Virus record (IMG/VR): IMGVR_UViG_3300009296_000163 | Coordinates: 1-26,975 of that record | Source of the DNA: a virus | Direction: 5' to 3' (one strand) | DNA length: 26,975 nucleotides | Part shown: positions 3,234 through 26,376 of the stretch, piece after piece | How positions within the stretch are numbered: the stretch's first letter is position 1 | Layout: every line of letters begins with the position of its first letter | Program-made: the position numbers and the translations under genes | The notes under the pieces: generated by a model | What the model was told of the DNA's origin: nothing | The model's input: the letters and a program-made list of their open reading frames with translations, nothing else | Databases searched by the model: none

Positions 3234-4136
3234 TTACAGCGTCACGCCAGCGAGCCTGGACGCCTTGATGTCGTTCGCGAGCACAAGCGCTATGTCCTCG
3301 AATATATCGAACTCGCTGAACTGCGAGGACTTTTGCGCCAGCCGGGCCATCTTGAGCGGGGTCAAGTCCCCGATCCAGACGGCGCTCGTGTCTAGGACGA
3401 AGATGTCAGTGGTGTTGTTGGCCGTGCCCTGTGCCTGGCTTTCTGAAACGAAGGCGGACCGGAAGATGGGTATTCCGTTGTAGACCTGAACGCGAAATCC
3501 GCCCTTGACCTCCATAGTGTCAACGAATCTCTGCTGGACCTGAAGCAGGGAGTTCAGCTTTCTGTTGGCCTTCTTCGACATTATCAGCATGCCGGGAACG
3601 CCGCGGTTTAAGTCTATGGCGGCATCCAAAAGCTCGAGGCTCAACGGAGCGCCGTTGGTCCCGGCTGTCACCACCTGGCCCCCAGGGATAAGTTTCCTTA
3701 TGCCGTTGAACTGCTTGGGGTTGGCGGTCGAGTCGCCATTGATAAGCGCATCCTCCTCGGCGTCCCTTACTGCCTGCAGGGCGTTTTCCACCTCCTCGGC
3801 CTCAATATCCAGGAGAGACTTCCCTACGGCCTGCAGTTTCCGCGTCACTTTCCCGCGCTGGATGATCGTCTTGTACGGGAATTTCTTCTGGACGTATGAC
3901 GCCTGCGTTTCCACCGGCTCGTCAGTGTCGTTTACAAAGGAACCGCCCGCTCCGCGCGAGGTCCTCTGGTTTAGGATCCACTCGGAACCCGACCCGGGCT
4001 TTCTCGGCAGGTTCTGTCTCAGCGGGTTGTTGACCTCTATGAGCTCCTGCAGGACGCGGTCGACAAGCGGCTGCTGCATCGCGCCGCCGGCCCCGGCCAT
4101 ATCCAACGCCTTCTTCAACTGTTCAAGATCGTTCAT
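3234..4136 (-). CDS. Major capsid protein, HK97 fold
   Basis: A 300-aa major head subunit. Signs of the HK97 family are the N-terminal helical region, an extended arm with SEWILNQRTSRGAGGSFV, the spine-helix segment LLDIEAEEVENALQAVRDAEEDALINGD followed by NPKQFNGIRKLI, and the C-terminal A-domain with GIPIFRSAFV and FVLDTSAVWIGDLTPLKM (each quoted in part). It is preceded by a protease/scaffold gene and AGGAGGA 9 bases before the ATG, the expected order protease-capsid. No long N-terminal delta domain is seen, which fits scaffold being supplied by the upstream gene. The length is typical of the family. Confidence 0.9.
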   Translation of the reverse strand: MNDLEQLKKALDMAGAGGAMQQPLVDRVLQELIEVNNPLRQNLPRKPGSGSEWILNQRTSRGAGGSFVNDTDEPVETQASYVQKKFPYKTIIQRGKVTRKLQAVGKSLLDIEAEEVENALQAVRDAEEDALINGDSTANPKQFNGIRKLIPGGQVVTAGTNGAPLSLELLDAAIDLNRGVPGMLIMSKKANRKLNSLLQVQQRFVDTMEVKGGFRVQVYNGIPIFRSAFVSESQAQGTANNTTDIFVLDTSAVWIGDLTPLKMARLAQKSSQFSEFDIFEDIALVLANDIKASRLAGVTL

Positions 4137-4156: not shown

Positions 4157-4681
4157 TTACTGCTTCTGCATGGCCAGCGCCACCTTCAGTTTCTTTTCAG
4201 GCGACAGGCTTTCGAATTCCTTTTTGACCCCGTCCGTTTCCGGCGCGGGCTCGATAATCCCTTTCCGCGCGGCCGGGATGGTTTTGATGGCGGCTTCCAT
4301 CTGCCTGGCCACCTCGCCCGCGATTATCTTCCCCAGTTCGGCTTTGCTCAAGCTTTTCGGGGCCGCCGGGGCCGGTTGCGGCGCGCTCATCACCGCGTTC
4401 AGCAGCATAGCCTTCACCTGCTCAGCCAGCGTGCCCGCCTGCCCGCCCATCGCCGTTATCTTGTCCAGCAGCGCCATCACGGGCGACAGCGCGCCAGTGC
4501 CGGGTGGATTGACGGCTTTCTGCGTTTCAGCGGGCTGCGCCGGAGCTTCCGGTTCGGCCGGCTGCGCGGCCGCCGCCGCTTCTGGCGGTTTCGCTTCCTC
4601 CGGCTTGGGCGGCTCCTGCGCCGCCTGTTGTCCGTCTTCCTTCTGGCGGATCTGCTCTATCGTGATTTCATCGTCTGACAT
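4157..4681 (-). CDS. Nested scaffold protein from internal start in the protease gene
   Basis: The in-frame ATG at 4681 inside the protease gene would give a 174-aa protein (MSDDEITIEQIRQKEDG...) holding only the disordered linker and C-terminal helices. Directly upstream, in coding sequence, is AAGGAGG with a 7-base spacer, the best ribosome site in this cluster. Known precedent: lambda Nu3 scaffold is made from an internal start within the C protease gene. I infer the same here: a small amount of protease-scaffold fusion and a larger amount of free scaffold. The extra start is read directly from sequence; its use is inference. Confidence 0.6.
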   Translation of the reverse strand: MSDDEITIEQIRQKEDGQQAAQEPPKPEEAKPPEAAAAAQPAEPEAPAQPAETQKAVNPPGTGALSPVMALLDKITAMGGQAGTLAEQVKAMLLNAVMSAPQPAPAAPKSLSKAELGKIIAGEVARQMEAAIKTIPAARKGIIEPAPETDGVKKEFESLSPEKKLKVALAMQKQ

Positions 4682-5218
4682 GTTATCTCCTCCTTCGGAT
4701 TCTTCGGCTGTTTGTCTGATGGCTTTTGCGATATACCAACCGATCGCGCGCGCCTCCGGGTTTGCCGGGACCGACACCAGCGAAACTTCCACCAGCGTCA
4801 TGCGCAGGATTACGTTCACCGTCCGCTCCAGCTCCGGCATGAACTTGCGTTCGCGCTCGAGCACCTGGCCGCGTATGGAGAACTTGTTAAGCACGCCCTC
4901 TTTTATCTTCTGGATTATTTCCGGCTCGGTCTGTGAGATGAGCGCGTCTATGAGCAGGCCGTGCTGGTCGAACTGGACCTTGGTCACTTTGCCGATGGGC
5001 AGCTTCAAATCGTGGTTCAACAATACGGTGGAATTCTGCAGCAAATCCAGCGAAGAACCCTGTAAGGCCTCCTCGGTTATGATGTCGCCCTGCAAATCCA
5101 GGTCGCTGGTGGCGGCGTAACCGACAATGTGGAATTCGCCGTTCTCCTCCACGGCTTTTATAAGCTGGATAGGGAACGCGAACGGGACTGTTTTCTGCGG
5201 CGTTGTTTTCGTTTTCAT
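4157..5218 (-). CDS. Prohead serine protease with C-terminal scaffold region
   Basis: A 353-aa protein. Residues 1-175 match the HK97 prohead protease family (peptidase S78): FHIVGYAATSDLDLQGDIIT, the histidine motif LLNHDLKLPIGKV, the serine segment NKFSIRGQVLE and the closing EVSLVSVPANPEA. It matures the prohead by cutting scaffold and capsid protein. Residues 180-353 are unlike the protease: an E/Q/P/A-rich linker, then helices (KSLSKAELGKIIAGEVARQM, FESLSPEKKLKVALAMQKQ), as in phage scaffolds. The start has GGAG a few bases upstream and follows an intrinsic terminator. An in-frame ATG at codon 180 has its own near-ideal ribosome site, so the scaffold part is probably also made alone. Confidence 0.9.
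   Translation of the reverse strand: MKTKTTPQKTVPFAFPIQLIKAVEENGEFHIVGYAATSDLDLQGDIITEEALQGSSLDLLQNSTVLLNHDLKLPIGKVTKVQFDQHGLLIDALISQTEPEIIQKIKEGVLNKFSIRGQVLERERKFMPELERTVNVILRMTLVEVSLVSVPANPEARAIGWYIAKAIRQTAEESEGGDNMSDDEITIEQIRQKEDGQQAAQEPPKPEEAKPPEAAAAAQPAEPEAPAQPAETQKAVNPPGTGALSPVMALLDKITAMGGQAGTLAEQVKAMLLNAVMSAPQPAPAAPKSLSKAELGKIIAGEVARQMEAAIKTIPAARKGIIEPAPETDGVKKEFESLSPEKKLKVALAMQKQ
4689..4695 (-). promoter_or_regulatory. Internal Shine-Dalgarno for nested scaffold
   Basis: AAGGAGG on the minus strand lies 7 bases before the internal ATG at 4681. It encodes part of the Glu/Gly-rich stretch EESEGGDN of the protease, so the codons also serve as a ribosome site. Confidence 0.65.
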
Positions 5219-5515: not shown

Positions 5516-5553
5516 TGTCCATTAACAGTTCAAACTGATTATTTCCCGTCGGA
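5516..5553. repeat. 38-bp gene-boundary repeat, copy 1
   Basis: 36 of 38 bases are identical to 13699-13736. The first 26 bases are identical and include the palindrome CAGTTCAAACTG. On the minus strand the copy spans the last codons of the methyltransferase gene (Ser-Asp-Gly-Lys-stop), the short gap, and an ATGGACA that can open the next frame. See the finding on boundary repeats. Confidence 0.9.
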
Positions 5554-7947
5554 CGTGGGCTGGATTGGAGCAGCCAGCGTCTTCTCCGAATACAGATCGC
5601 CGGGCTTGATCTCGTAGTTGGAGACCAGCAGCTCATACTTCGTCCGCGAGCCCAGTTGGTGCATGCCGGTCCACAGCGTCTTCACGCGGTAGGTGTTGAA
5701 TTCCTTGAACAGCTTTTCTTTTTCAAGCTCGTAGCTTAAAAGAAACTTCCCCTTGATAGCGCGCAGCGCGGGCAGTAGGCTCTCCTCCTGGAAGAACTTG
5801 GAACCGTGCCGGCCCGCTTCTTTCGGCCAGTGCAGCGGATACGGCGGGTCCAGGTAAAACAAGGTGTCTTTAGAGTCGTATTCTTTCACCGCGTCCTGCC
5901 AGTCCCATGAGTGCAGCAATACGCTCTTGAGGCGTTCCTGTATCTCCGGAAGGCGCTCGGCCAGGTGTATCTTCGCGCCCTCGCCGGAACTGCCGTGCCG
6001 TCTGACGCCTTCCCGCGCGTCCGCGCGGCCCCAGTATGTCGCCTTGTTGAGATATGCGAACCGGTAGAACTTTTCACGCGCTGTTTCCGGCCGCCAATCA
6101 TAGAGCTTCTTGACCAGCGCGCGGCTGATTACCCAGTCCCGCTTCTTAAGCCATTCCCAGTCTGCGGTGGTCATGCTCTTTATAAATCGGTATGAGGCGA
6201 TTATGTCTGAGTTGACGTCGTTTATGACCTCCATGTCTGATCGCTTCTTGTGGAACAGTACCTGCGCACCGCCGCAAAACGCCTCGACATAGTTCTTGTG
6301 CTCAGGGAGGAAGCCGACCAGCTTCTTGCATAAGCGGAGTTTCCCCCCTGGGCTCTTGAACGCGCCCCGGATCTTCTCCACCTCGGACTGATCCTCCAGA
6401 TGCGGCAGCAGTTCCGGTTCTTCCGATTCAAAGCCCTCCGGCGCGATGTCCAGCTCCTTGCCGATGTATAGGTCCACTTTCTGCAGCGGGAAATTGGAGA
6501 CCAGTATCTCGGTCACCCATTCCTGGTTGCCGCCCGGCCCGCGCATCTGGTTGCGCCGCCGAACCTTGTAGACGTTATAGCCCTTGAAAGAATCAGCCTG
6601 CTCCACCGGGTATGACACTATCCATTTCGCTTTCAACGACTTGATGGCGCGCTTGAACTCGGCGTCGTCAAACCCGAAGTCGAACAGGTTGAACTTGCCG
6701 GGATATGGCGGGTCCATGTAGAAGAACGTGTCCTGCCCGTCGTAGTCCTTTAGAATGTCGCGGTAGTCTTTGTTATGAACGGCGGCATTTTTAAGCCGGG
6801 CTTGCGCCCGCTCTATGTTGGCCGGGAAGTCTATCCGGACACCGGCGTTGGCGTGATTGAATGAGCCGCCACGCATTTTGCCGTAGGACGACCGGGTCAG
6901 GTAGAACGATTTGTAAAACCGGTCGCGGTCGGTGGCTGGCTTCAGCTCTTTCAGACGCTCGTGTGTATTCTGGCGGATCACCCAGTCGCGCTTGGCCAGC
7001 GCTGCCCTGTCCTCAGGCGAATGGTCGCGTATAAACTTGTGCATGAACGCTATTTCGGCGTCGCGGTCGTTTAACACTTCCTGCGGGGACGGGTCCTTGG
7101 CGTATAGAACCGCCGCGCCTCCGGCGAACGGCTCGACGTAGGTTTTATGATACGGGATATAAGAGGCTATCTTGTGGGCCAGGAAGCGTTTTCCGCCGTA
7201 GGAACCGAACGCCTGCCGCACGCCTTTCATGTATTCCGTAACGAAATGCCAGACATCCGTTTCCCGGAGCAGACAGGCGGCGCGCGCGGTTTTGAGCGCT
7301 TCCCCGACCGTCATAACGGGCTTTGAGCCCGGCACGCTTGTTATGTCCAGCCCGGCCGCTGACAGTGCGAAATTGCCGTCGTCGCGCCTGCACAGGATAA
7401 GGCTTTCGCACTCCACATCCAGTATATCGCCCGGCTCGGGCCACGGGCCCGCACCGGCGACATGGCCGATTTCCAGCCACAGCTTGCCGTTTAGTGACCG
7501 TATGGGTTCCGGCGCGGCTTTCATGTTCTGGTAGTCCAGACCGAAGTAAGCGTTGCGCGTTTCCGGCAGGTATCCGTCCTCCACGCGCGTTACTATGGCC
7601 CGCATGACGAACGAGCGCGGCTTGTCCGCCGCCGCGAGCGGGTCCTCGGGCGCGTCCGGATCGTCCATTTCCGTGTGCTTGCGTGTCTCCGCGTCCAGTT
7701 CGTCGCTGAGCGTATGGGCGAACCCGCGCAGCGCCATCTCGGCGCATACTTCGGCGTGCAGGTTCAGGATATCCGGTGCCTGCCATTCTCTGCCGCCGGT
7801 CTGGTATACCGGGTGGCCCGCGCGTTTCATGGCCCATGCCCTGTGCAGGATGAAATCCATAGACAGCAGCTCCTGGGCCGCCAGATCGGCCGGAGCCGTG
7901 TTGAATAGCTCGCCGAACTCGGCTAAGTCGGTTTTTAGAACGTTCAT
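5539..7947 (-). CDS. Double DNA adenine methyltransferase (two D12-class domains)
   Basis: An 802-aa protein. The start at 7947 has GGAGG just upstream and an ATGA overlap with the portal stop. Residues 1-245 are a domain I cannot assign firmly; part (about 110-205: KLWLEIGHVAGAGPWPEPGD, then ILDVECESL) recalls an OB fold. Two Dam-like domains follow. Domain 1 (about 247-490) has GSYGGKRFLAHKI, SAM motif VEPFAGGAA at 271-279 and catalytic DPPY at 412-415. Domain 2 (about 528-780) has SPGGKLRLCKKL, VEAFCGGA at 554-561 and DPPY at 700-703. Both keep the key residues, so both may transfer methyl groups to adenine N6. The gene lies within the head cassette between portal and protease, which suggests modification of the virion genome before or during packaging. 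Domain identity is secure; target sites are unknown. Confidence 0.88.
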   Translation of the reverse strand: MNVLKTDLAEFGELFNTAPADLAAQELLSMDFILHRAWAMKRAGHPVYQTGGREWQAPDILNLHAEVCAEMALRGFAHTLSDELDAETRKHTEMDDPDAPEDPLAAADKPRSFVMRAIVTRVEDGYLPETRNAYFGLDYQNMKAAPEPIRSLNGKLWLEIGHVAGAGPWPEPGDILDVECESLILCRRDDGNFALSAAGLDITSVPGSKPVMTVGEALKTARAACLLRETDVWHFVTEYMKGVRQAFGSYGGKRFLAHKIASYIPYHKTYVEPFAGGAAVLYAKDPSPQEVLNDRDAEIAFMHKFIRDHSPEDRAALAKRDWVIRQNTHERLKELKPATDRDRFYKSFYLTRSSYGKMRGGSFNHANAGVRIDFPANIERAQARLKNAAVHNKDYRDILKDYDGQDTFFYMDPPYPGKFNLFDFGFDDAEFKRAIKSLKAKWIVSYPVEQADSFKGYNVYKVRRRNQMRGPGGNQEWVTEILVSNFPLQKVDLYIGKELDIAPEGFESEEPELLPHLEDQSEVEKIRGAFKSPGGKLRLCKKLVGFLPEHKNYVEAFCGGAQVLFHKKRSDMEVINDVNSDIIASYRFIKSMTTADWEWLKKRDWVISRALVKKLYDWRPETAREKFYRFAYLNKATYWGRADAREGVRRHGSSGEGAKIHLAERLPEIQERLKSVLLHSWDWQDAVKEYDSKDTLFYLDPPYPLHWPKEAGRHGSKFFQEESLLPALRAIKGKFLLSYELEKEKLFKEFNTYRVKTLWTGMHQLGSRTKYELLVSNYEIKPGDLYSEKTLAAPIQPTSDGK

Positions 7948-10025
7948 TTTTCCTCCAGTACTGTAATCCACGTGCATCTGCAGTTCGGATGCGCGGGTAA
8001 GACGTCTGACGCCTCGTCGATATCTATGATCTTCCCGAGTTTGCCGCCGGGCGCGGACTCGGCCGCGTCCACGCAGGCCGGGCAAGCGTCCGGAGACAAT
8101 AACCACTGCACGCGCTCCACCGAACCCTGTCGCAGCGCGTCCAGATTACCTTCGTTGTATGCGCGGTTGGCCTCGGTGCGGGCGATTATCTCAGCCGCGT
8201 CGGCCCGGCCGAGCTTGCGGACGCCGCCAGCGCGGATTATGTTGCCGTTCGCGTCCAGAACGGGCTTCACATTTATTAAAGCCACCGTGTCCAACTGGCT
8301 GTCCACCCGCGCCATCAGCTGCGGTATGGTTTCATTGGCCGCTATGCCCTCTATGAGCGCCTGCCGCAGGCTGGCTTGTATTGCCAGGGAGACGTGCCCG
8401 GCCAGGGCGGCGGAGCTGGCTTTAATCTTCTCCTGCAGTGCCCGGCTCAAATCGTCAACGTCCTCTATTCCGGCCCGCCGAGTTGATAATTGCAGGCCCT
8501 TGCGCGCCGCTTCAAGCGAGAACCTCTCCACTATCCTGGCTATCTTGTCGCTGTCCACCTGTTCCAGCAGGACCTCAATATCGTCCAGCTGTTTTGCCGC
8601 CTCCGGGATGACAGCCTGCCGGAACGCCAGGCCGCCGCAAACGCTGAATGAAGTCACGAACGGCAGCTTTACGGCTTTCACTTTCGGCAGGATCGCTTCG
8701 CGGTTCAAATGCGGAAGTTTGGCCGCTACGGCGGACTTTATATCGCGGAATAGCCGCGCCAGAGCGTCAGTGAATCTGTTCTCTATGGCGACCACCTCGC
8801 GGGTGGAGTTCACGATGGTCTCCTGCGGGCTCAGTGATTTTTGTATATCCGGCATGCGCGGCGCGACCAGCCTGCGGACCTCCTCGGGTGTGAATACGCC
8901 GTTCTGCAGGTAGATGCCGAATATCTCGGCCTGGTCCTTCTCGTCTATCGCGCGTTTGTTGAATTGGAACGACCAGTCCGTTATGCCGAAGCCCTGCCGG
9001 ACTATGTGCTTATTGAGCTTCTCGGCCACGCGCATCTGGAACGGCAGAATGGTTTCCTCATAAAAGGTCTGGGTCTGGTGGTCACCGGTGCCCGCGCCGA
9101 TATTGCCGGTCTCGATGATGGATACCTTGCTGGGCGGCACGCCGTAGACTGCCAGTATCTCGTTGCGGGTGAATTCCCGGAGCTGCAGGAACTCCATGTC
9201 TTTCTGGTTAACCCCCACCTGTTTGAACTCTATGTCGCCCTCAAGCACGAGGTCCGCGTGCGCGAGTTCGGGATTCTTGGCTCGGACGTTCAGGTAAGCC
9301 CGGTTGCGTTCCACCTGCTCCGGGGTGGCGTCCTTCATGATGAACGCGCCGCGTATCTTCGCGCCGTTCACGAAAAACGCGCGGTTGTAGACCTGCGCGA
9401 ATTTATCGACCGCGATCGGCAGTATAAGCGAAGCCAGCGGGGAAAGGCCGTACAGGGTAGCCCCCTTGGTTCCCAGTTTGAAGTGGATTACTTCACTGGT
9501 CTCGAATGCGACCTTTCCCTCCCGGCTCCGCGAATACCTTGGCGACTGGACGTAGCCCAGTATCGCGCCGTGCTCGTCCGCCCGGACGCTCATAGTGGTC
9601 GCGTCCAGATTCCAGATCTCGCGCGGCTTGCCGTCCGCGCCGTAAACAACCTCCACGAACGCGTTGCCGAACACGTAGACGTCGCGTGTTATGTCGTCCA
9701 GTATCTCTAGGAGCGTGTCGTTCGGGTTGCAGTTAGAGAAGAAGTCCTGTAAAGTCTCGGCGCTCTTCGGGTCCGCGCCCGGCTTGGCCGGTGTCAGCGT
9801 GTAGCCGCGTGCTGTGACCGCCTTGCAGATGACGCCGACCACCGCGCGCACCCAGGAGGTCTGCTCATACATCCGGTTGAATATTTCGAAGTCGATGTCC
9901 GGCAGTATTCCCTCTTCCATCGAGACGCCGGGCACGTGCGAGATTATCTGCTTCGCGGCTTTTTCAATTTCAGCCCCGATAATATTCCCGAACAGAATTT
10001 TGACCACCGTTTCACGTAATCTCAT
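7944..10025 (-). CDS. Portal protein fused to MuF-like head morphogenesis domain
   Basis: A 693-aa protein. Residues 1 to about 400 are a phage portal: DVYVFGNAFVEVVYGADGKP, VIHFKLGTKGATLYGLSPLA, FTRNEILAVYGVPPSKVSII and QTFYEETILPFQMRVAEKLN. Residues about 560-693 match the Mu F / SPP1 gp7 minor head family, with IARTEANRAYNEGNLDALRQ and the cysteine-rich end CPACVDAAESAPGG ... HPNCRCTW. The portal forms the dodecameric DNA channel; MuF proteins enter the head and help assembly or carry effectors. In many phages these are two genes, here one chain. The start has GAGGA upstream. The stop overlaps the methyltransferase start by ATGA, implying coupled translation. Confidence 0.9.
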   Translation of the reverse strand: MRLRETVVKILFGNIIGAEIEKAAKQIISHVPGVSMEEGILPDIDFEIFNRMYEQTSWVRAVVGVICKAVTARGYTLTPAKPGADPKSAETLQDFFSNCNPNDTLLEILDDITRDVYVFGNAFVEVVYGADGKPREIWNLDATTMSVRADEHGAILGYVQSPRYSRSREGKVAFETSEVIHFKLGTKGATLYGLSPLASLILPIAVDKFAQVYNRAFFVNGAKIRGAFIMKDATPEQVERNRAYLNVRAKNPELAHADLVLEGDIEFKQVGVNQKDMEFLQLREFTRNEILAVYGVPPSKVSIIETGNIGAGTGDHQTQTFYEETILPFQMRVAEKLNKHIVRQGFGITDWSFQFNKRAIDEKDQAEIFGIYLQNGVFTPEEVRRLVAPRMPDIQKSLSPQETIVNSTREVVAIENRFTDALARLFRDIKSAVAAKLPHLNREAILPKVKAVKLPFVTSFSVCGGLAFRQAVIPEAAKQLDDIEVLLEQVDSDKIARIVERFSLEAARKGLQLSTRRAGIEDVDDLSRALQEKIKASSAALAGHVSLAIQASLRQALIEGIAANETIPQLMARVDSQLDTVALINVKPVLDANGNIIRAGGVRKLGRADAAEIIARTEANRAYNEGNLDALRQGSVERVQWLLSPDACPACVDAAESAPGGKLGKIIDIDEASDVLPAHPNCRCTWITVLEEK

Positions 10026-10047
10026 TTTGTCCTCGTTCCGTTATTTC

Positions 10048-10053
10048 TATAAT
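10048..10053 (+). promoter_or_regulatory. Consensus -10 box just before the TrmO-like gene
   Basis: A perfect TATAAT ends 9 bases before the ATG at 10063. A transcript would begin about 2-3 bases before the start codon, so the mRNA would be nearly leaderless; no Shine-Dalgarno is visible. The -35 region is poor (TTTTGT at 17-bp spacing). Confidence 0.5.
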
Positions 10054-10062
10054 GTCTTTGTC

Positions 10063-10497
10063 ATGCCCGCCCGCAATTTACAGGCCCGCGCTATAGGCAG
10101 AGTCCGTGGGGACTCTGTTGTAATCCACAAACGCTATGTCAGTGCGCTGGACGGGATAGAGGGCTTTTCCCACATAATCGTCCTTTTCTGGCTTGATAAA
10201 TCCCGCAGCAAGCCGGCCATGAAAATCCACCCCAAGGGCCGCGCGGATATACCGCTCATTGGGACTTTCGCCACGCGTACGCCGCACAGGTTCAATCCCA
10301 TCGGCATGACGGTGGTCCGGCTCATCCGGCGCAACGGTTCCGAGCTTAAAGTCAAAGGGCTTGACGCCTGGCCGGGAACGCCGGTCCTGGACATCAAGCC
10401 GTATACCAGGCGCGAGTCCGTTCGGAAGTTCAATATTCCCGGTTGGGTCCGCAAGCTCGACAGCCTTGAAACCGATCCCTTGCGCAGGTACTCCTAA
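10063..10497 (+). CDS. trmO: TrmO/TsaA-like tRNA methyltransferase, antisense to phage operon
   Basis: A 144-aa protein of the TsaA/VirR/UPF0066 family. E. coli TrmO uses SAM to methylate t6A37 in threonine tRNAs. Family motifs in order are GIEGFSHIIVLFWLDKS (residues 31-47), FATRTPHRFNPIGMTVVRL (about 69-87) and GLDAWPGTPVLDIKPY (about 99-114). It corresponds to the N-terminal catalytic barrel, without the extra C-terminal domain of the longer E. coli protein. It lies on the plus strand between portal and Mom-like genes, ends 14 bases from the convergent Mom-like stop, and has its own -10 box. This looks like a cargo gene (moron) expressed in the prophage. The antisense frame 10078-10515 is a shadow. 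Confidence 0.87.
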   Translation: MPARNLQARAIGRVRGDSVVIHKRYVSALDGIEGFSHIIVLFWLDKSRSKPAMKIHPKGRADIPLIGTFATRTPHRFNPIGMTVVRLIRRNGSELKVKGLDAWPGTPVLDIKPYTRRESVRKFNIPGWVRKLDSLETDPLRRYS

Positions 10498-10511
10498 CAA
10501 TCCGGCGTTTC

Positions 10512-11255
10512 TCATAAAATTCCCCCCGGAAAAAGAAAAGCGGGGTTTCGGAACCGCCCCGAACCCTTGAGATTGGGAATCTCACGGCTCTCTCTTGAGC
10601 CCTCCCCCGCGTCTATCCACCATCTGAGGTCGCCGTTCTTGGGATATGCCGTCCGCCAGTTGAACGACGATTCCCTGAGCAGCGCCTTCCTGAGCTTGTG
10701 TGAGCACAGGAATTTGCAGTACCTGAACTGGTAGCCAGATATCTTCATGAGCCCCATCTTCCGCGTGAATTTATTCTCCCGGGTGCCGTACCGGGTTATC
10801 AGCAGCCTGGGATGCACCACCTCGCCTTCCGCCGTCCGGTAGAACTGGCTCTTGATGAATCCTCCATACAGCCAGCTCGCAGACTGGTACACATAACCCG
10901 GCTTGCCCCTGAGGCCGTCCGCCCAGCTGAACAGAACTTTAACGCCCGGGAAGTCCTCCTGTATCCACTCCGCGCACATTTTAAGGAACCGGCTTTCGGT
11001 ATTGCGCGGCATCTCGTCCAACACGCAGAACCTGTTCAGCTCCAGGTAGTCGTTCACGCCGAGCGACGGGAACAGCCGGCGTATCGTATGCATCGGCCTT
11101 GTGCCGAATCCCCATAGCGCCACCCCAACCAGCTTGTCGCTATTAAACAGGCCGTATGTCGCCTTCGTGATAGGCGGGCAGATGACGGCGTAATGATGGT
11201 CCGCCACGAACTGCCTGCCTGTCGCGTTATCTATCGGCCTGACGCTTAAATCCAT
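10512..11255 (-). CDS. Mom-like DNA modification protein
   Basis: A 247-aa protein starting MDLSVRPIDNATG. The start at 11255 is supported by AGGAG 7 bases upstream. Residues about 30-135 carry the pattern of the phage Mom family, a GNAT-fold group: ITKATYGLFNSDKLVGVALW, YLELNRFCVLDEMPRNTESR and FSWADGLRGKPGYVYQSASW. Mu Mom converts adenine to N6-carbamoylmethyl-adenine and so protects phage DNA from restriction. The C-terminal half (LRKALLRESSFNWRTAYPKN) is basic and could bind DNA. In the sequence as given the frame runs on from the terminase because of the 77-bp duplication, but I infer it is normally a separate gene. Family assignment is by motif likeness. Confidence 0.78.
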   Translation of the reverse strand: MDLSVRPIDNATGRQFVADHHYAVICPPITKATYGLFNSDKLVGVALWGFGTRPMHTIRRLFPSLGVNDYLELNRFCVLDEMPRNTESRFLKMCAEWIQEDFPGVKVLFSWADGLRGKPGYVYQSASWLYGGFIKSQFYRTAEGEVVHPRLLITRYGTRENKFTRKMGLMKISGYQFRYCKFLCSHKLRKALLRESSFNWRTAYPKNGDLRWWIDAGEGSRESREIPNLKGSGRFRNPAFLFPGGIL

Positions 11256-12698
11256 ACCATCGCTCCTATTCATCCAAATCGTCCGAGAACGATATCCTCG
11301 GTTCCATGCGCTGCGCCTGCACGCCCTGCAGCGCCAGCCAGAGCGCGTCCAGCATATCGTCCGAGCTGTGCGGGAAGTGTCCATGCGCTGCGCCTGCACG
11401 CCCTGCAGCGCCAGCCAGAGCGCGTCCAGCATATCGTCCGAGCTGTGCGGGAAGTGCAGCAGCTCTTCCTCCATCTCCGGCATGGTCTCGCGCGGCAGGG
11501 TAATGACGCCGTTTTCGAACAGCGGGGCGAGGCCGCGCAGGCGGGCGTGCTTGTCGCCCTGCGTCATGATGGCCTTTATCGGCAGCATCTTGGTCTCAGG
11601 GTCGGTGCGCAGCGACTCGATGAACGCGCTCTGGTAACCGTTCGACTCTATGCTTATAAGCCTAGGATGCCTGTGCCGGTTCATCCGTTTGACAGTCTTC
11701 AGCTGCTCATTGAACGGGATGCGTCCGCGATACGCCTCTATGATGAAAGCATCCCCGGCCTTGTTGATGCCGATTACGCAGTATGCGAACCGGGAATTGG
11801 ACTCGCGCCGGCCGATAGCGAGGTCAACTCCCGCGAACACGGTCAGGTCGTCCGGCAGCTTGTCATACCGGCCGGATTCCAGCCACGCCAGCTTGAAATC
11901 CGCGCCTTCCTGGCCGGACGGGTCGTTCAGGTACAGGCAGTTATAAGAGGCCGCGCCCAGCTGGGCACGCTGAAGGGCCAGTTTCTCCGCGTTGAATTTC
12001 TCCGGGAACAGGATATGCTTTTTCCCCGCCTCGTCATTCCATTCGGCGGCCAGATTGATGACCTTCCAGTTGCCGTAGCCGGGGTCGTTTTTCAGAAAGC
12101 CCGCGATATCGTCCGTATGCCAGCGGGTCATAACAACCACTATCTGCCCGTCATTATCGAGCCTGGGCAGCAGGTCGCGCTGGAACCAGCGGATAACTTT
12201 CTGCCGCTGGTGCGGCGTCATGGTGTTTCGGTTTGAGCACGGGTCGTCTATGACTATAAGGTTCGGATGCTGGCTGACCACCGTGCCCAGGACCGACGCG
12301 ACCGCGATAGACGGCTCCTTGCGGATCTCCGTGCGCGGTATCTGGACGCGTTCCTCCGTCCAGGTGTCAGCCGTCAGGTCCCAATGGCCGTAGCGGTCGC
12401 GAAACCGCTCGTTCTGCGTCAGGTGGCCTTTGATCTCCCGCATGAAGCCCTTGGCGTTGTCCAATATCTCGTTCACCAGCAGAATCCGCATGTTGTGGTC
12501 TTCGGCCAGCCGGAATAGCGGGTAGGCTATTGTGCAGGCCGTGGTCTTAAGATGCCCCACCGGCGCGAGCAGCAGGATAAACTGCTCCCGCAGCAGGGTG
12601 TCGAACCAGGAAAGGTGCAGCTCGGTCAACTGGCTGTAGCCCAGGACGTCCTTGGCGAAGAAAAACAGCTCTTCCAGCCGCTGCGCGTGGGGCTTCAT
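10512..12698 (-). CDS. terL: Terminase large subunit; frame runs through a duplication into Mom-like gene
   Basis: The frame as given encodes 728 aa; the terminase part is residues 1-439. It is the packaging motor and nuclease. The ATPase has Walker A APVGHLKTT (45-53), Walker B LIVIDDP (147-153) and coupling motif TRWH (191-194). The nuclease has VDLAIG (D292), ISIESNG (E351) and SSDDMLDALW (D421-D425). A 77-bp tandem repeat then shifts the frame: residues 440-480 are out-of-frame and Arg/Trp-rich, and reading continues into the Mom-like protein. With one copy removed the terminase would end EPRISFSDDLDE-stop at 11266, giving a normal 451 aa. The start at 12698 has AGGA upstream and overlaps the preceding small frame by ATGA. 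Confidence 0.9.
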   Translation of the reverse strand: MKPHAQRLEELFFFAKDVLGYSQLTELHLSWFDTLLREQFILLLAPVGHLKTTACTIAYPLFRLAEDHNMRILLVNEILDNAKGFMREIKGHLTQNERFRDRYGHWDLTADTWTEERVQIPRTEIRKEPSIAVASVLGTVVSQHPNLIVIDDPCSNRNTMTPHQRQKVIRWFQRDLLPRLDNDGQIVVVMTRWHTDDIAGFLKNDPGYGNWKVINLAAEWNDEAGKKHILFPEKFNAEKLALQRAQLGAASYNCLYLNDPSGQEGADFKLAWLESGRYDKLPDDLTVFAGVDLAIGRRESNSRFAYCVIGINKAGDAFIIEAYRGRIPFNEQLKTVKRMNRHRHPRLISIESNGYQSAFIESLRTDPETKMLPIKAIMTQGDKHARLRGLAPLFENGVITLPRETMPEMEEELLHFPHSSDDMLDALWLALQGVQAQRMDTSRTARTICWTRSGWRCRACRRSAWNRGYRSRTIWMNRSDGMDLSVRPIDNATGRQFVADHHYAVICPPITKATYGLFNSDKLVGVALWGFGTRPMHTIRRLFPSLGVNDYLELNRFCVLDEMPRNTESRFLKMCAEWIQEDFPGVKVLFSWADGLRGKPGYVYQSASWLYGGFIKSQFYRTAEGEVVHPRLLITRYGTRENKFTRKMGLMKISGYQFRYCKFLCSHKLRKALLRESSFNWRTAYPKNGDLRWWIDAGEGSRESREIPNLKGSGRFRNPAFLFPGGIL
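11303..11456. repeat. Perfect 77-bp tandem duplication in terminase C-terminus
   Basis: Bases 11303-11379 and 11380-11456 are identical at all 77 positions, and identity stops exactly at both ends. The length is not a multiple of three, so it frameshifts the terminase. The copy read second (11303-11379) is translated out of frame. Either a recent slippage or recombination event or an unresolved assembly overlap explains it. Confidence 0.97.
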
Positions 12699-12961
12699 AG
12701 GGCTTCCTGTTCCGTACGAAAAAAATAGGGCTTTGTGCGAAGAACGGGCGAGGCGATTTTCCGACGGGTGTTTCGTACAAGTAAAAATAGCCTGAACCGC
12801 TTTTCAGCGTGCGAAATAAAAGCGTAGGGGGAGCATGCGCGCTTTGGGCCGGTATTTTTACGCAAATTTTCCGGGGCCGTCCGGAGCGCGGCTCTCCGTC
12901 GGGGAAACACTGAACATAATGGCGCATTATGTGCAGTGAATCGCGTGTTACTTGGGGTCAT
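12695..12961 (-). CDS. Doubtful small basic protein between terminase subunits
   Basis: An 88-aa frame (MTPSNTRFTAHNAPLCSVFP...). In favour: AAAGGAG lies 7 bases before its ATG, it overlaps the end of the upstream HTH gene, and its stop overlaps the terminase start by ATGA. Against: the protein has no Asp and very many Arg, no recognisable motif, third-codon-position GC that looks lower than in neighbours, and it contains a large inverted repeat. If it is not a gene, 12699-12947 is a 249-base non-coding stretch holding the dyad, a possible terminase recognition region. Confidence 0.35.
   Translation of the reverse strand: MTPSNTRFTAHNAPLCSVFPRRRAALRTAPENLRKNTGPKRACSPYAFISHAEKRFRLFLLVRNTRRKIASPVLRTKPYFFRTEQEAL
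12908..12938. promoter_or_regulatory. 31-bp near-perfect inverted repeat between terminase genes
   Basis: The left arm CACTGAACATAATG and right arm CATTATGTGCAGTG are 14 bases each, complementary except for one position, with a 3-base spacer GCG. No T-run follows, so it is not a typical terminator. The location just after the small-terminase-like gene fits a protein-binding site such as a packaging (cos/pac) or operator site. An imperfect pair of GTACGAAAAAAATAG-like stretches (12715-12730 and 12774-12789) lies nearby. Confidence 0.55.
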
Positions 12962-13496
12962 TCCCTATCTCCTTTCGTGATTCGCCCGCGCCCTCCGGCT
13001 TACCGGGCGCTTCCGCTTCGCATTGTGCGACGGGCCGTTCCTCCTGCCTGACTTCCGACACCTGTGTAACCTGCTTGCGTAAATACTCCGCGACCGTGAT
13101 TTTCACCTTCTCGGACGACTCTTGAATATTCTGCGGCACTTGGTTCTTGCCGGTAAGCGCGCCGAACTGTCCTTGCCGGTCGAACAGTTCGCCCATGAGC
13201 ATAGTGAGCTCCTTCACCGTCGCTTCCGGCAACTTGCGCTTGATTTCCTTGAGCGCGGCGAATATTATGTCCCAGGCTTCACGCATCAGCCGGCCTTTCA
13301 GCCTGGCGGCCACAGGGTCATCACTTAGCGAGCTTTCAGCGATGAACTTGCTGGCGTTGTCGAGCCAGTATTTTACCGTGCTCTTCTTCACGCCCAGATC
13401 CCGCGCTATCTGGCTAAGCCTCGCGCCGCCCTCGAACATGATTATGGCGGTCTGCCTTAACTTATTGGTGTGTTTCTGTGGCCCTTTTCTGTTCAT
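12948..13496 (-). CDS. Small terminase-like DNA-binding protein (HTH)
   Basis: A 182-aa protein. The start at 13496 (MNRKGPQKHTNK) is chosen because it overlaps the upstream stop by ATGA; an upstream in-frame extension lies inside the preceding gene. Residues about 24-48 form a clear helix-turn-helix, ARLSQIARDLGVKKSTVKYW. The middle is helical, with LMREAWDIIFAALKEIKRKL and EATVKELTMLMGELFDR, as in phage small terminases that recognise viral DNA and load the large subunit. The C-terminal 50 residues are charged and probably disordered. Position directly before the large terminase supports the call; a plain regulator is the alternative. Confidence 0.75.
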   Translation of the reverse strand: MNRKGPQKHTNKLRQTAIIMFEGGARLSQIARDLGVKKSTVKYWLDNASKFIAESSLSDDPVAARLKGRLMREAWDIIFAALKEIKRKLPEATVKELTMLMGELFDRQGQFGALTGKNQVPQNIQESSEKVKITVAEYLRKQVTQVSEVRQEERPVAQCEAEAPGKPEGAGESRKEIGNDPK

Positions 13497-13672
13497 TCCG
13501 CGTCTTCCCATCCCGACTTCATCTTCTTGCGGAACCTGCGCTGATACGCGCACAGGTCTTTCATCCGCTTGAGCCTATGGCAGCGCTCGTGATACCTCTG
13601 GTTCGCGTAAAGCGGCTGAAACCCTTTGCCGCAAACCTTGCATTTTCTGTGTCTGAAAATCCGCTTATGCAT
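13493..13672 (-). CDS. Small Cys/His protein, possible zinc binder
   Basis: A 59-aa, very basic protein if started at 13672 (MHKRIFRHRKCKVCGKGFQP), where GAAGG lies about 10 bases upstream. An earlier in-frame ATG at 13705 (MDSGVFEGQN...) would give 70 aa but has no ribosome site and falls in the 38-bp boundary repeat. CKVCGKGF ... RYHERCHR gives a Cys-x2-Cys pair and a His/Cys pair about 15 residues on, like a small zinc finger. It overlaps the small terminase start by ATGA, so the two are probably translated together. Function unknown; nucleic-acid binding is a guess. Confidence 0.7.
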   Translation of the reverse strand: MHKRIFRHRKCKVCGKGFQPLYANQRYHERCHRLKRMKDLCAYQRRFRKKMKSGWEDAE

Positions 13673-21975: not shown

Positions 21976-22617
21976 TTATGCTCGTCTTAAATTTTTCGCC
22001 TTCCGAATTAACAGCGTCATCTTGCCCACTATGCGGAAGTCGGAATCCTCTGGAGTAACGACAATCGGTTCCATGTCGTCGTTCTCCGGGATTAGCAGAT
22101 GATTCCCTTTGGAATCACGGCCGTATTTCTTTAACGTCGCCCCGCCTTCGTATATGGCGACTACGATATCGCCAGGATCAGCAGTCGTCTGCTGCTTGGC
22201 TATCACGTAGTCGCCCGAGTATATTCCGGCTTTTACCATACTGTCGCCTTTAACTGGAAACATGCAGAACTCTCCTGCGCCGGTTAAAGACTTTGAAAGC
22301 CAGTGAACCTCATCCGTGTCGTCTGATAGTGTCTTTGGACTACCCAACGGGACCGTTGCCAGACACTCCGGAACCGGGGTAAGCGCTGCCCACTCCGGTC
22401 GCACCATCCCGGAGGTAGGCTTCAGACTGCGGAACTTCCGTTTCTCCTTTTTAATGAAGCCTTTTTTTACCAAGGCGTCTATATGCCCGGACACTCCTTT
22501 GATGGAGGCGAAGCCGAAATGGGTTCCTATCTCCCTAAAAGTCGGCGCTGCCCCGGTTTTCTGGATGGTATGCGTGATAAAATCCAGCACCTGCTGCTGT
22601 TTTTTTGTCAGTTCCAT
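21976..22617 (-). CDS. LexA-like repressor (S24 peptidase family)
   Basis: A 213-aa phage repressor. Residues 1-65 are a winged helix very like LexA: LTKKQQQVLDFITHTIQKTG, PTFREIGTHFGFAS, VSGHIDALVKKGFI. The C-terminal S24 domain has catalytic Ser126 in VKGDSMVKAGI and Lys163 in GATLKKYG. At the place of the LexA Ala-Gly cleavage bond the sequence reads LATVPLGSP, so Ala-Thr appears instead. It is divergent from the integrase side and has its own promoter with a palindrome in the spacer. It probably keeps the prophage silent and may respond to RecA. It could also be a co-opted host-type LexA; its location within the element favours a phage role. Confidence 0.87.
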   Translation of the reverse strand: MELTKKQQQVLDFITHTIQKTGAAPTFREIGTHFGFASIKGVSGHIDALVKKGFIKKEKRKFRSLKPTSGMVRPEWAALTPVPECLATVPLGSPKTLSDDTDEVHWLSKSLTGAGEFCMFPVKGDSMVKAGIYSGDYVIAKQQTTADPGDIVVAIYEGGATLKKYGRDSKGNHLLIPENDDMEPIVVTPEDSDFRIVGKMTLLIRKAKNLRRA

Positions 22618-23088: not shown

Positions 23089-24717
23089 ATGGCTAACAGA
23101 AGAATAGACCCACCGCCGGAGCCGGAAAAGCCCAAGATCATGTCCTGCGCTATTTATACGCGCAAATCTACCGATGAAAACCTGAACACAAATTTCAACT
23201 CGCTGGACTCGCAGAGGGAATACTGCCAGGCGTTCATAAAGAGCCGGGAGCCGGAAGGCTGGAGCGTATATCTTGAAGAATACAGCGACCCCGGGTTTAC
23301 TGGCGGCAACATGGACCGCCCGGCGCTAAAGAGGCTTATCTCCGATGCCCGGCAGGGAAAGTTTCATGTGGTCGTCTGCTATAAGTACGACCGGCTCAGC
23401 CGCAACACGCGGGATTTCCTTCATATCCTCGATACTTTTGAGAAGAACGGCGTGGCGTTCGTATCCGTAACACAGCCGATAGACACCACCTCTTCAGTCG
23501 GCAGGCTGATGCGGTCCATCCTGATGGACTTCGCCCAGTTCGAACGCGAGATGATAAGCGAGCGGACGCGCGACAAGATGGCGGCTATGGCCAGGAAAGG
23601 GAAGTGGGTCGGCGGCCATCCCATCATCGGTTACGAGTATGACAAGAAGAATAAAATTCTTCTGGTCAATCCAGATGAAGCGAAGCGGGTGCGGGAAATC
23701 TACGACACCTACATCCGGACTGCCTCGCTGATGGTCACGGCTAAATGGGCGACCGACAAGGGTTACACTATGAAAGGCTGGACCACGGAAAAAGGCCAGC
23801 AACGCGGCGGACGGACATTCAACAAGGCGAATCTGAGCTATCTCATAAACAATCCCGTTTTTACCGGCAAGATCGCTTATAAGCGGGAAATTTTCAAGGG
23901 AGAGCATCCGGCAATAATCCCGGACGATATTTTTGAACAGGCGCACAGAATCCTCCGGGGCAACTGGAAGGGAAAATCGCATAAACACTTCGAGGACCGG
24001 AAGCATAACTATCTTCTGGGTGGCCTTGTCCGGTGCGCGTTTTGTAATTCCACGATGACGCCGACCACCAGCCGCCCTCGTAAGGGCGAACGGTATTTCT
24101 ACTATCACTGCATCTCGGTCAACAAGATGGACAGGACCGCTTGTGATGTCAGACGGGTCCCAGCCAAGGCGCTTGAGGGCTTCGTGCTGAAACGGCTGGA
24201 ATTGCTGAGTAAGAGCAAGGATGTAGTGGAAACCGTCATTAAAGGCACGATTGACGACTCTGACCGGGTCCTGCCGGGCAAGCGCGACGAGAAAAGCCGC
24301 TTAAGCGCGGAATTAGGCCGGGTTGAGGGCGATGTCAGGAACCTTGTGAACGTTCTGGCGCAGGAGGGCGCGGATTCCCCCCGCTACAGGGTAATTATGG
24401 ACAGGCTGGACGAATCACAGGCCAAAAAGGACGCGGTGCGGACCAGGCTGTTCGCCCTGGACAAAGAAATCATGGAATACGAGGGCCGGGAGGTGGATGC
24501 GGAGATCGTCCGGCAAAATCTTGAGCATTTTCTGCGGCTTTTCGGGCAATGCAGCTATGAGGAGCAGAAAGAGCTACTGAAGCTCCTTATACGCGACGTC
24601 TACTACGACGGCAAGAATTCGCGCGTTAAAATAGCACTGAGGCCGGTTACCGGGGCTTGGGGCGATGTGGCCCACTTGGAAGGATTGTTCGATGACAGTC
24701 AAAAATGGGGTGGCTGA
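23089..24717 (+). CDS. Large serine recombinase (phage integrase)
   Basis: A 542-aa site-specific recombinase. Residues about 18-165 are the catalytic resolvase domain: YTRKSTDE with nucleophile Ser27, YKYDRLSRNTRDF, and LMRSILMDFAQFEREMISER. Residues about 190-300 are the recombinase DNA-binding domain (NKANLSYLINNPVFTGKIAY). A zinc ribbon follows (RCAFCNSTM ... YYHC ... ACDVRR). Residues about 395-475 are Glu/Arg/Lys-rich heptads likely to form the coiled coil that controls direction. The last 4 codons (Trp-Gly-Gly-stop) lie inside the 3' end of tRNA-His, so the gene end is part of the attachment region. Serine integrases use a 2-base crossover and need a partner factor for excision. Confidence 0.93.
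   Translation: MANRRIDPPPEPEKPKIMSCAIYTRKSTDENLNTNFNSLDSQREYCQAFIKSREPEGWSVYLEEYSDPGFTGGNMDRPALKRLISDARQGKFHVVVCYKYDRLSRNTRDFLHILDTFEKNGVAFVSVTQPIDTTSSVGRLMRSILMDFAQFEREMISERTRDKMAAMARKGKWVGGHPIIGYEYDKKNKILLVNPDEAKRVREIYDTYIRTASLMVTAKWATDKGYTMKGWTTEKGQQRGGRTFNKANLSYLINNPVFTGKIAYKREIFKGEHPAIIPDDIFEQAHRILRGNWKGKSHKHFEDRKHNYLLGGLVRCAFCNSTMTPTTSRPRKGERYFYYHCISVNKMDRTACDVRRVPAKALEGFVLKRLELLSKSKDVVETVIKGTIDDSDRVLPGKRDEKSRLSAELGRVEGDVRNLVNVLAQEGADSPRYRVIMDRLDESQAKKDAVRTRLFALDKEIMEYEGREVDAEIVRQNLEHFLRLFGQCSYEEQKELLKLLIRDVYYDGKNSRVKIALRPVTGAWGDVAHLEGLFDDSQKWGG
24706..24717. other. Overlap of integrase end and tRNA-His 3' end; likely attachment region
   Basis: The final 12 bases of the integrase gene are the complement of the CCA end and acceptor strand of tRNA-His. 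The prophage lies on the 3' side of the tRNA, and host genes start on the 5' side. The crossover should therefore be within or next to the tRNA 3' half. The partner site is outside the window, and no second copy of this segment was found in the window. Confidence 0.6.
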
Positions 24718-24782
24718 CGGGATTTGAACCCGCGACCTCTCGGGCCACAGCCGAGCGCTCTAACCACTGAGCTACAACCACC
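24706..24782 (-). tRNA. tRNA-His (anticodon GTG)
   Basis: 77 bases including an encoded CCA. The acceptor stem GTGGTTG pairs with CAGCCAC (one G-U), plus the extra 5' G paired with the discriminator C that marks tRNA-His. The anticodon stem CTCGG/CCGAG encloses a loop CTGTGGC, with GTG as anticodon. The T arm contains GGTTCAAATC. It is intact, so integration rebuilt or preserved the gene. Confidence 0.96.
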
Positions 24783-24948: not shown

Positions 24949-26376
24949 ATGGAAATACGCAAACCGGCGGTGGCGGGCAGCTTTTACGACGCGGACCCGG
25001 AAAAACTCAAAAAAAAGGTTTCACAATATCTGAACTGCGGGCCGGCAAAAACAGAGGGTGAAATTATGGGCGTGCTGGCGCCTCATGCGGGTTATTCCTA
25101 TTCGGGCGCGATGGCCGGCAGGGCTTTTGCCCGGCTTGGGGAAATAAAAGCGGATACTTTTGTGATTATCGGCACAGGCCATACCATGGCCTTGAAGCAT
25201 GGCGCGCTGGTGGCCGGCGGCTTTTTTGAAACTCCATTGGGCCGGGTTCCGGTGGACGAAAAACTGTCTGCGGAGCTTATGAAAACGCCGTCACTTTTTG
25301 AGAATCTGCCCGAAGCGCACCTGACGGAGCATTCCATAGAGGTTCAGTTGCCTTTCTTGCAATTGCTGAGGGGCGGAGATTTTAAAATCTTGCCGCTTCT
25401 TTTTAATACCGAAAACACCGACACTCTGGTTAAAGCCGGTAAAGCGTTGGGCGCCTGCATGAAAAAACACAAAGCCGTTATCTGTGTTTCTTCCGACTTG
25501 TCTCACTATCCTCCGGGCGATGTGGCCGCGGTATCGGATAAATCAATAATGCTTTCTCTTCAAACCGCTATCCGGAACGCGGACCCGGCATATTTTGACT
25601 TGGCCTGCCGGCTGGCGCATGAAAAGAACCGTTCACAGATGGACACAGCCGCCTGCGGGCAGGCGGCCATAATAGCCGGGGCCGCCGCCGCCCTTGAACT
25701 TGGAGCGGATGATTTTGAACTGGCCGGTTATTCCCATTCCGGCATGATTTCAGGTTCGGACAGCAATGTTGTGGGATACGCTGCCGGGGTATTTTCAAAG
25801 GCTGGCAAAAAGAAGACAGGAGCTATAACTCTCAGTCTGGAAATGAAATCGGAACTGCTTGCTCATGCCCGCAAAAGTATAGCCGATCATCTCAAAAACG
25901 GCAGAGTTACGCCTTTACCGATGAGCCAGCGGCTTGAGTTTAACCAGCCGGCTGCGGTATTTGTGACGCTTACCGAAAATGGGCAGCTGCGGGGTTGCAT
26001 AGGCTCAATGGAGCCGCATGCGGCGCTGGCGGATGCGGTTAATTATTACGCCGTTTCGGCGGCGTTAAAAGATTCGCGGTTTCCCCCCGTTACGCGCAAT
26101 GAACTGGCAAAGATAAAAATTGAAATTTCCGTCCTGTCCCCCCTTAAACCGGCCCACTCTTACTCGGAAGTGGAACCGCGTAGGCATGGGGTTTATGTGA
26201 AGAAAGGTTCAAGGAGCGGCACCTATCTGCCGCAGGTGTGGGAACATTTCAATACCCGGGAAGAATTCCTTTCTTCGCTCTGCCTTGAAAAAGCCGGGCT
26301 TGACGCTAATGCCTGGAAAGAAAAATCCACCGCGCTTTTTATTTACACGGTGGATTCTTTTGAGGAAAAAATATAG
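24949..26376 (+). CDS. amrB: AmmeMemoRadiSam system proteins B and A fused (Memo + AMMECR1)
   Basis: A 475-aa host protein. Residues 1-265 are the Memo domain: VAGSFYDADPEKL, APHAGYSYSGAMAGRAF (His46), IIGTGHT (His78), EHSIEVQLPFLQL and VSSDLSHYPPGDVA; the conserved His residues form a metal site in the family. Residues about 285-475 are the AMMECR1 domain with the hallmark LRGCIGSMEP and SALKDSRFPPVT-like segment, then EISVLSPLKP. The two are separate proteins in many genomes and work with a radical-SAM enzyme; the reaction is not established. No radical-SAM partner is in the window. AAGGAA precedes the ATG. Slightly lower GC than the prophage and opposite context mark it as chromosomal. Confidence 0.92.
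   Translation: MEIRKPAVAGSFYDADPEKLKKKVSQYLNCGPAKTEGEIMGVLAPHAGYSYSGAMAGRAFARLGEIKADTFVIIGTGHTMALKHGALVAGGFFETPLGRVPVDEKLSAELMKTPSLFENLPEAHLTEHSIEVQLPFLQLLRGGDFKILPLLFNTENTDTLVKAGKALGACMKKHKAVICVSSDLSHYPPGDVAAVSDKSIMLSLQTAIRNADPAYFDLACRLAHEKNRSQMDTAACGQAAIIAGAAAALELGADDFELAGYSHSGMISGSDSNVVGYAAGVFSKAGKKKTGAITLSLEMKSELLAHARKSIADHLKNGRVTPLPMSQRLEFNQPAAVFVTLTENGQLRGCIGSMEPHAALADAVNYYAVSAALKDSRFPPVTRNELAKIKIEISVLSPLKPAHSYSEVEPRRHGVYVKKGSRSGTYLPQVWEHFNTREEFLSSLCLEKAGLDANAWKEKSTALFIYTVDSFEEKI

Follow-up and report, generated by a model that had tools for sequence, protein, structure and literature searches.

A Mom-family DNA modification gene between the terminase and portal genes of a prophage

The Mom protein of phage Mu attaches a bulky group to adenine, and restriction enzymes cannot cut DNA that carries it. 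Few enzymes are known to decorate adenine in DNA with anything larger than a methyl group, and Mom is one of them; most of what experiments have taught about it comes from phage Mu. According to PMC7824862, Mom belongs to the GNAT enzymes and targets adenine N6, and jumbo phages have Mom domains that are fused to nucleases. PMC11318856 classes PHROG 1384 genes of Clostridium prophages as anti-phage defence.

Here we describe a mom gene in a viral DNA of 26,975 nucleotides (IMG/VR record IMGVR_UViG_3300009296_000163, hereafter the window). The gene is a genuine member of the Mom family within a prophage head cassette. It adds a further Mom protein, from a little-studied host group, to a family that is itself already known. 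A search of titles and abstracts for Mom in Elusimicrobia found no report of such a case.

Family membership, fold and active-site residues

The open reading frame at positions 10512–11255 on the minus strand encodes a protein of 247 amino acids. Both stretches that the original prediction had taken as Mom motifs occur in its translation, ITKATYGLFNSDKLVGVALW as residues 29–48 and YLELNRFCVLDEMPRNTESR as residues 70–89. In a Pfam profile search, the Mom family PF25680 matched the protein with 142.9 bits (E=1.4e-41; profile cut-off 27.1 bits), aligning residues 3–189 with profile positions 2–191 of 202, and no other Pfam family matched up to E=1. Likewise, PHROG 1384 ('Mom-like DNA modification protein') was the sole PHROG with a match (E=4.8e-37, 128.7 bits). 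Mu Mom (PDB 8bv8) was matched by sequence at 2.6e-17, and a PDB match to a TAL effector (3ugm, 0 stretches) was set aside as a repeat artefact. Using tblastn, relatives were found in 289 of 50,697 phage records, every one below 60% identity; 15 of 72,556 plasmid records also contained relatives.

A structure was predicted with AlphaFold from an alignment of 14 sequences, in which 13 relatives from IMG/VR accompanied the window protein (mean pLDDT 74). Mu Mom (8bv8) was the top Foldseek match to this model (4.2e-14; best other entry 1.3e-5). VIA-align 2 also ranked it first by a wide margin, with a Z-score of 19.4 over 193 residues (chain A, rmsd 3.8, 28% identity), whereas the runner-up, an unrelated GNAT, reached 11.5. 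The predicted structure thus has the Mom-type GNAT fold. Of the 999 aligned PDB chains, 579 scored a Z of 8 or more against the model.

The entry 8bv8 is titled as an inactive S124A mutant of the Mu protein. Residue S88 of the window protein aligns with this mutated position, and D113 aligns with Mu D149, which we take to be a catalytic-site residue of Mu Mom. Hence, both catalytic-site residues are present. Across 62 distinct Mom proteins including Mu, 15 columns were invariant (H21, Y22, G49, P54, Y70, A112, D113, G117, G120, Y123, Q124, Y139, H148, Y179 and K206). The S88 position was occupied by S in 59 of the 62 proteins, by T in two and by I in one. This and other positions vary among the more distant named phages; Salmonella phage SP-038, for instance, has T. 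Taken together, the profile matches, far above chance, and the structural comparison bear out the predicted Mom identity on both of the checks that had been proposed for it: the best structural match was Mu Mom itself rather than an unrelated acetyltransferase lacking the Mom residues.

Two stretches (R53, H56-T57-I58, F62-P63-S64-L65; W111, K118) hardly vary among the 61 remaining proteins and are changed in Mu. Furthermore, the C-terminal part that extends past the last residue of Mu Mom is conserved in the relatives of the window protein. In view of these stretches and this extension, a product identical to that of Mu should not be assumed; judged by sequence, the enzyme may have another donor, product or target site than Mu Mom. 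The tree of Mom proteins was built from 62 of 77 sequences, after short, truncated and identical rows had been dropped. The placement of Mu in this tree is unsure, owing to its very long branch.

The head and packaging cassette and its insertions

The minus strand of the window carries, in order, a helix–turn–helix protein, the large terminase gene terL, mom, the portal gene, a methyltransferase gene, a head maturation protease and the major head protein, with a plus-strand insertion between mom and the portal gene. The helix–turn–helix protein (12948–13553; HTH_23, E=1.9e-05) takes the position of the small terminase subunit, and its match to Terminase_5 (E=0.0037) stayed under the cut-off of that profile. 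The portal protein (7944–10025; phrog_2662, E=4.5e-62; phrog_115, E=1.6e-16) has a C-terminal minor-head domain. The protease lies at 4157–5218 (phrog_80, E=1.7e-23) and the major head protein at 3234–4136 (phrog_212, E=9.6e-30).

The same gene order, without the insertion, was found in five related loci (L002, L004, L006, L007 and L020). Locus L003 shared the order as far as the methyltransferase, and L005 was cut off in the portal gene. In all seven loci (L002–L007 and L020) mom was intact, at 79–94% identity and each time between terL and the portal gene, which indicates that it appears to be kept. In contrast, locus L041, with a terminase 71% identical to that of the window, proceeds directly from terL to the portal gene without mom, followed by a single-domain D12 methyltransferase. 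Hence, mom is an accessory gene of the terL–portal slot, a plug-in that is able to occupy it. In other lineages mom was found beside replication, recombination or tail genes.

Other genes in the window suggest that the phage was integrated. A serine recombinase (23089–24717) and a LexA-type repressor (21976–22617) are present. The recombinase gene and a tRNA-His gene of the opposite strand together span 23089–24781 and share 12 nt at the 3' end of the recombinase gene, which is a likely attachment site. Beyond the tRNA lies a fusion gene of the MEMO/AMMECR1 type (24949–26376), which we took as host flank. The relative L020 comes from an Elusimicrobia metagenome-assembled genome (MAG), in which its contig measures 154 kb, and the host of the window is therefore probably an elusimicrobiote. 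L020 and the IMG/VR locus L006 apparently represent the same phage.

Immediately upstream of mom, the large terminase gene (11266–12698, minus strand; phrog_38, E=6.3e-85 over residues 10–468 of the fused frame; Terminase_6C, E=3e-06) ends with a TAG at 11266–11268, a position that we set by comparison with L002. The mom ATG (11255–11253) follows in the same direction after 10 nt, in agreement with the placement directly after the terminase in the original prediction. In the deposited sequence, however, the frame runs open from 12698 to 10512 (728 amino acids) and resembles a terminase–Mom fusion. A true fusion protein would link modification with packaging, and if the underlying repeat were real, Mom would be produced fused to the terminase. 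This open frame is created solely by an exact tandem repeat of two adjacent 77-bp copies (11303–11379 and 11380–11456), the only exact tandem repeat with a period of 30–159 nt in the window. The extra copy shifts the terminase, the last part of which it disturbs, out of frame. In relative L002, with a Mom 94% identical, there is a single copy, and the terminase stops normally, 10 nt upstream of the mom ATG; terL and mom are also distinct genes in L003–L006 and L020. Since 77 is a common k-mer length in SPAdes-type assemblers, the repeat probably stems from an overlap that was not collapsed, and it is most likely an assembly artefact. We therefore rejected the fusion, which we consider highly unlikely, and treat terL and mom as separate, adjacent genes; 10512–11255 delimits the real mom gene.

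The insertion between mom and the portal gene (10026–10510, ~485 bp) is absent from the relatives. In L002 there is an overlap between the stop of mom and the start of the portal gene, and homology with the window stops at 10511 and restarts at 10007; both flanking genes of the window retain a plausible stop and start. The insertion carries a gene on the plus strand, convergent with mom (10063–10497, 144 amino acids), which had gone unmentioned in the original prediction. Its product belongs to the TrmO_N family of tRNA adenine-N6 methyltransferases (PF01980, E=8.6e-28, 97.3 bits against a cut-off of 26.8; PDB 2nv4 at 3.6e-19 and 7btu at 4.1e-16). TrmO enzymes act on tRNA, where they methylate the modified adenine at position 37. 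In the surroundings of the gene, a promoter scan picked up a single minus-strand site and no terminator.

By tblastn, TrmO-like genes turned up in only 9 of 50,697 phage records; among these nine, one is a Salmonella contig (H46) and two look bacterial from how they are listed (H43 and H44). When viral contigs were scanned for relatives of the TrmO protein, none turned up, and a search of titles and abstracts for TrmO in phages yielded no report of such a case. The protein was at most 44% identical to nine compared TrmO loci, and at 41% identity to the copy of the Elusimicrobia MAG itself no recent capture from that host was seen. Beside mom, the TrmO-like gene looked like a third enzyme that modifies adenine. 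TrmO_N was found in none of the 65 other Mom virus records (17 + 48 scanned), and TrmO was thus rejected as a general partner of Mom. In L027, from a MAG of Phycisphaerae, it lies about 7 kb past mom, beyond a tail-fibre-like gene and beside methyltransferases and genes resembling type I restriction genes, as judged by eye. In L031 (7667–16687; Phycisphaerae MAG), the tail gene of the Mom prophage is followed by a row of genes that were identified by eye from their translations: TrmO, two DNA methyltransferase-like genes, one of HD type and others that resemble type I restriction genes.

Methyltransferases in the neighbourhood of mom

The methyltransferase of the window (5539–7947, minus strand) is a single polypeptide that contains a pair of D12 (Dam-type) domains. 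It matched PF02086 (E=1.3e-35) and TIGR00571 dam (E=9.4e-40) in two stretches each, and the motif DPPYP occurs in both halves, so that the predicted double methyltransferase was confirmed. The PF02086 match and the DPPY motif place the frame (5539–8106) in the D12 class of adenine-N6 methyltransferases. Although the frame is listed from 8106, translation probably begins with the ATG at 7947, which overlaps the stop of the portal gene. The protein has an N-terminal extension, part of which is lacking in L003 and L004.

We counted methyltransferases, as matches to PF01555 and PF02086 only, in records with and without Mom. Controls were 43 of 57 terminase loci; L039 and L040 were excluded as Mom-bearing and 12 others, mostly short records, were left out. 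Among records of at least 20 kb, a methyltransferase was found in 17 of the 18 records with at least 51% Mom identity, in five of the 12 more distant Mom records, and in five of the 16 terminase-related control records without Mom. In 12 of the 18 closer records the nearest methyltransferase was within 5 kb of mom. Regardless of record length, the counts were 21 of 40 for the closer and 6 of 25 for the more distant Mom records, while PF01555 was found in six and PF02086 in one of the 43 Mom-less controls. The enrichment had a Fisher p of 1.8e-4, which ignores kinship and is thereby inflated in significance; related records were counted separately (G005 and G006, for example, do not differ in their Mom or in their D12 coordinates).

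The class of methyltransferase varied among lineages. Two-domain D12 enzymes accompany mom in the clade of the window, and N6/N4 types elsewhere; several of the latter match phrog_498 and have ParB-like N-terminal matches. The methyltransferase labels in the Mom tree were assigned by hand. In G074 and G075 (loci L113 and L114), the methyltransferase frame beside mom contains one internal TAG. An obligate coupling of the two genes was rejected, as L041 has the single-domain D12 gene without mom and the 28-kb record of L115 has mom with neither PF01555 nor PF02086. These sequence counts support that Mom and a methyltransferase often occur together in related records, not that they work together. 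Layered adenine modification by the two enzymes, as originally suggested, is plausible and consistent with gene content and the enrichment.

One broader reading, which we offer only tentatively and consider rather doubtful, would concern the Mom subfamily formed by the window protein and relatives of at least 51% identity, the tail of which ends near G-R/Q-F-R-x-x-A and is lacking in Mu. This subfamily might pair with a lineage-varying methyltransferase in a two-layer nucleobase modification in phages of Elusimicrobiota, Planctomycetota and Deltaproteobacteria, with a product that is possibly not Mu's.

Proposed role and comparison with known Mom proteins

We consider it very probable that the gene encodes a Mom enzyme that is expressed late from the head and packaging operon and modifies adenines of the phage DNA against host restriction. 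Late transcription would proceed through terL, mom and the portal, methyltransferase, protease and capsid genes. After replication of the phage DNA, Mom would then act on the exocyclic amino group of its adenines, either just ahead of packaging or while it proceeds, presumably giving the same modified base as in Mu. The bulky group would leave virion DNA refractory to restriction endonucleases of the next host cell. The double D12 methyltransferase may add N6-methyladenine at its own sites, as a second, sequence-specific layer.

Alternatively, the protein might share nothing but its fold with Mom and act as an unrelated GNAT acetyltransferase on proteins or small molecules. The Mom fold is indeed a GNAT fold, which more than half of the aligned PDB chains resemble. 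Yet Mu Mom stands far above the other GNATs in both structural searches, no other Pfam profile matches, and Mu S124 and D149 are kept, which makes this reading extremely improbable. It is less improbable, though still unlikely, that the protein is a Mom member with the same fold and base target that attaches another acyl-type group or has another role, such as marking its own DNA for packaging or controlling transcription. The signature stretches of the non-Mu proteins and their conserved C-terminal extension would fit this reading, as would the nuclease fusions of jumbo phages, which suggest that the family is used in more than one way (PMC7824862). The core active-site residues, however, are identical to those of Mu. 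The modification might also have a purpose other than protection from restriction.

These intact and conserved Mom relatives in prophages of uncultivated bacteria are proteins that lend themselves to experiments; they share a conserved extension, and a methyltransferase is a recurring neighbour of their genes. Host range, conserved tail and methyltransferase company add modest interest to a known family.

Among described proteins of the family, the Mom-like protein of Methylophilales phage Melnitz-3 (PHROG 1384/PF25680) is 41% identical to the window protein; its gene lies among small genes without assigned function and a hydroxylase. Those of Psychrobacter phage Y8A (31%; gene at the end of the record) and Salmonella phage FSL SP-038 (30%; near DNA polymerase I) are more distant, and all three lack the terL–portal context. 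A close counterpart, the prophage region L020 of the MAG RIFOXYA12_FULL_51_18, shares the order terL, mom, portal, double D12 methyltransferase, protease and capsid, with a Mom of 79% identity, but has neither the TrmO insertion nor the 77-bp repeat of the window. Mu Mom (NP_050657.1; 8bv8) and the window protein are both encoded by phage genes and share the GNAT-type fold and 64 aligned identical residues (about 30% identity), including S124 and D149. In Mu, com (769–957 in L019) overlaps the start of mom (878–1603). In contrast, the window mom has no com-like partner overlapping its start, its upstream neighbour being terL at 10 nt; it is located within the terL–portal operon, and its product carries about 40 extra C-terminal residues.
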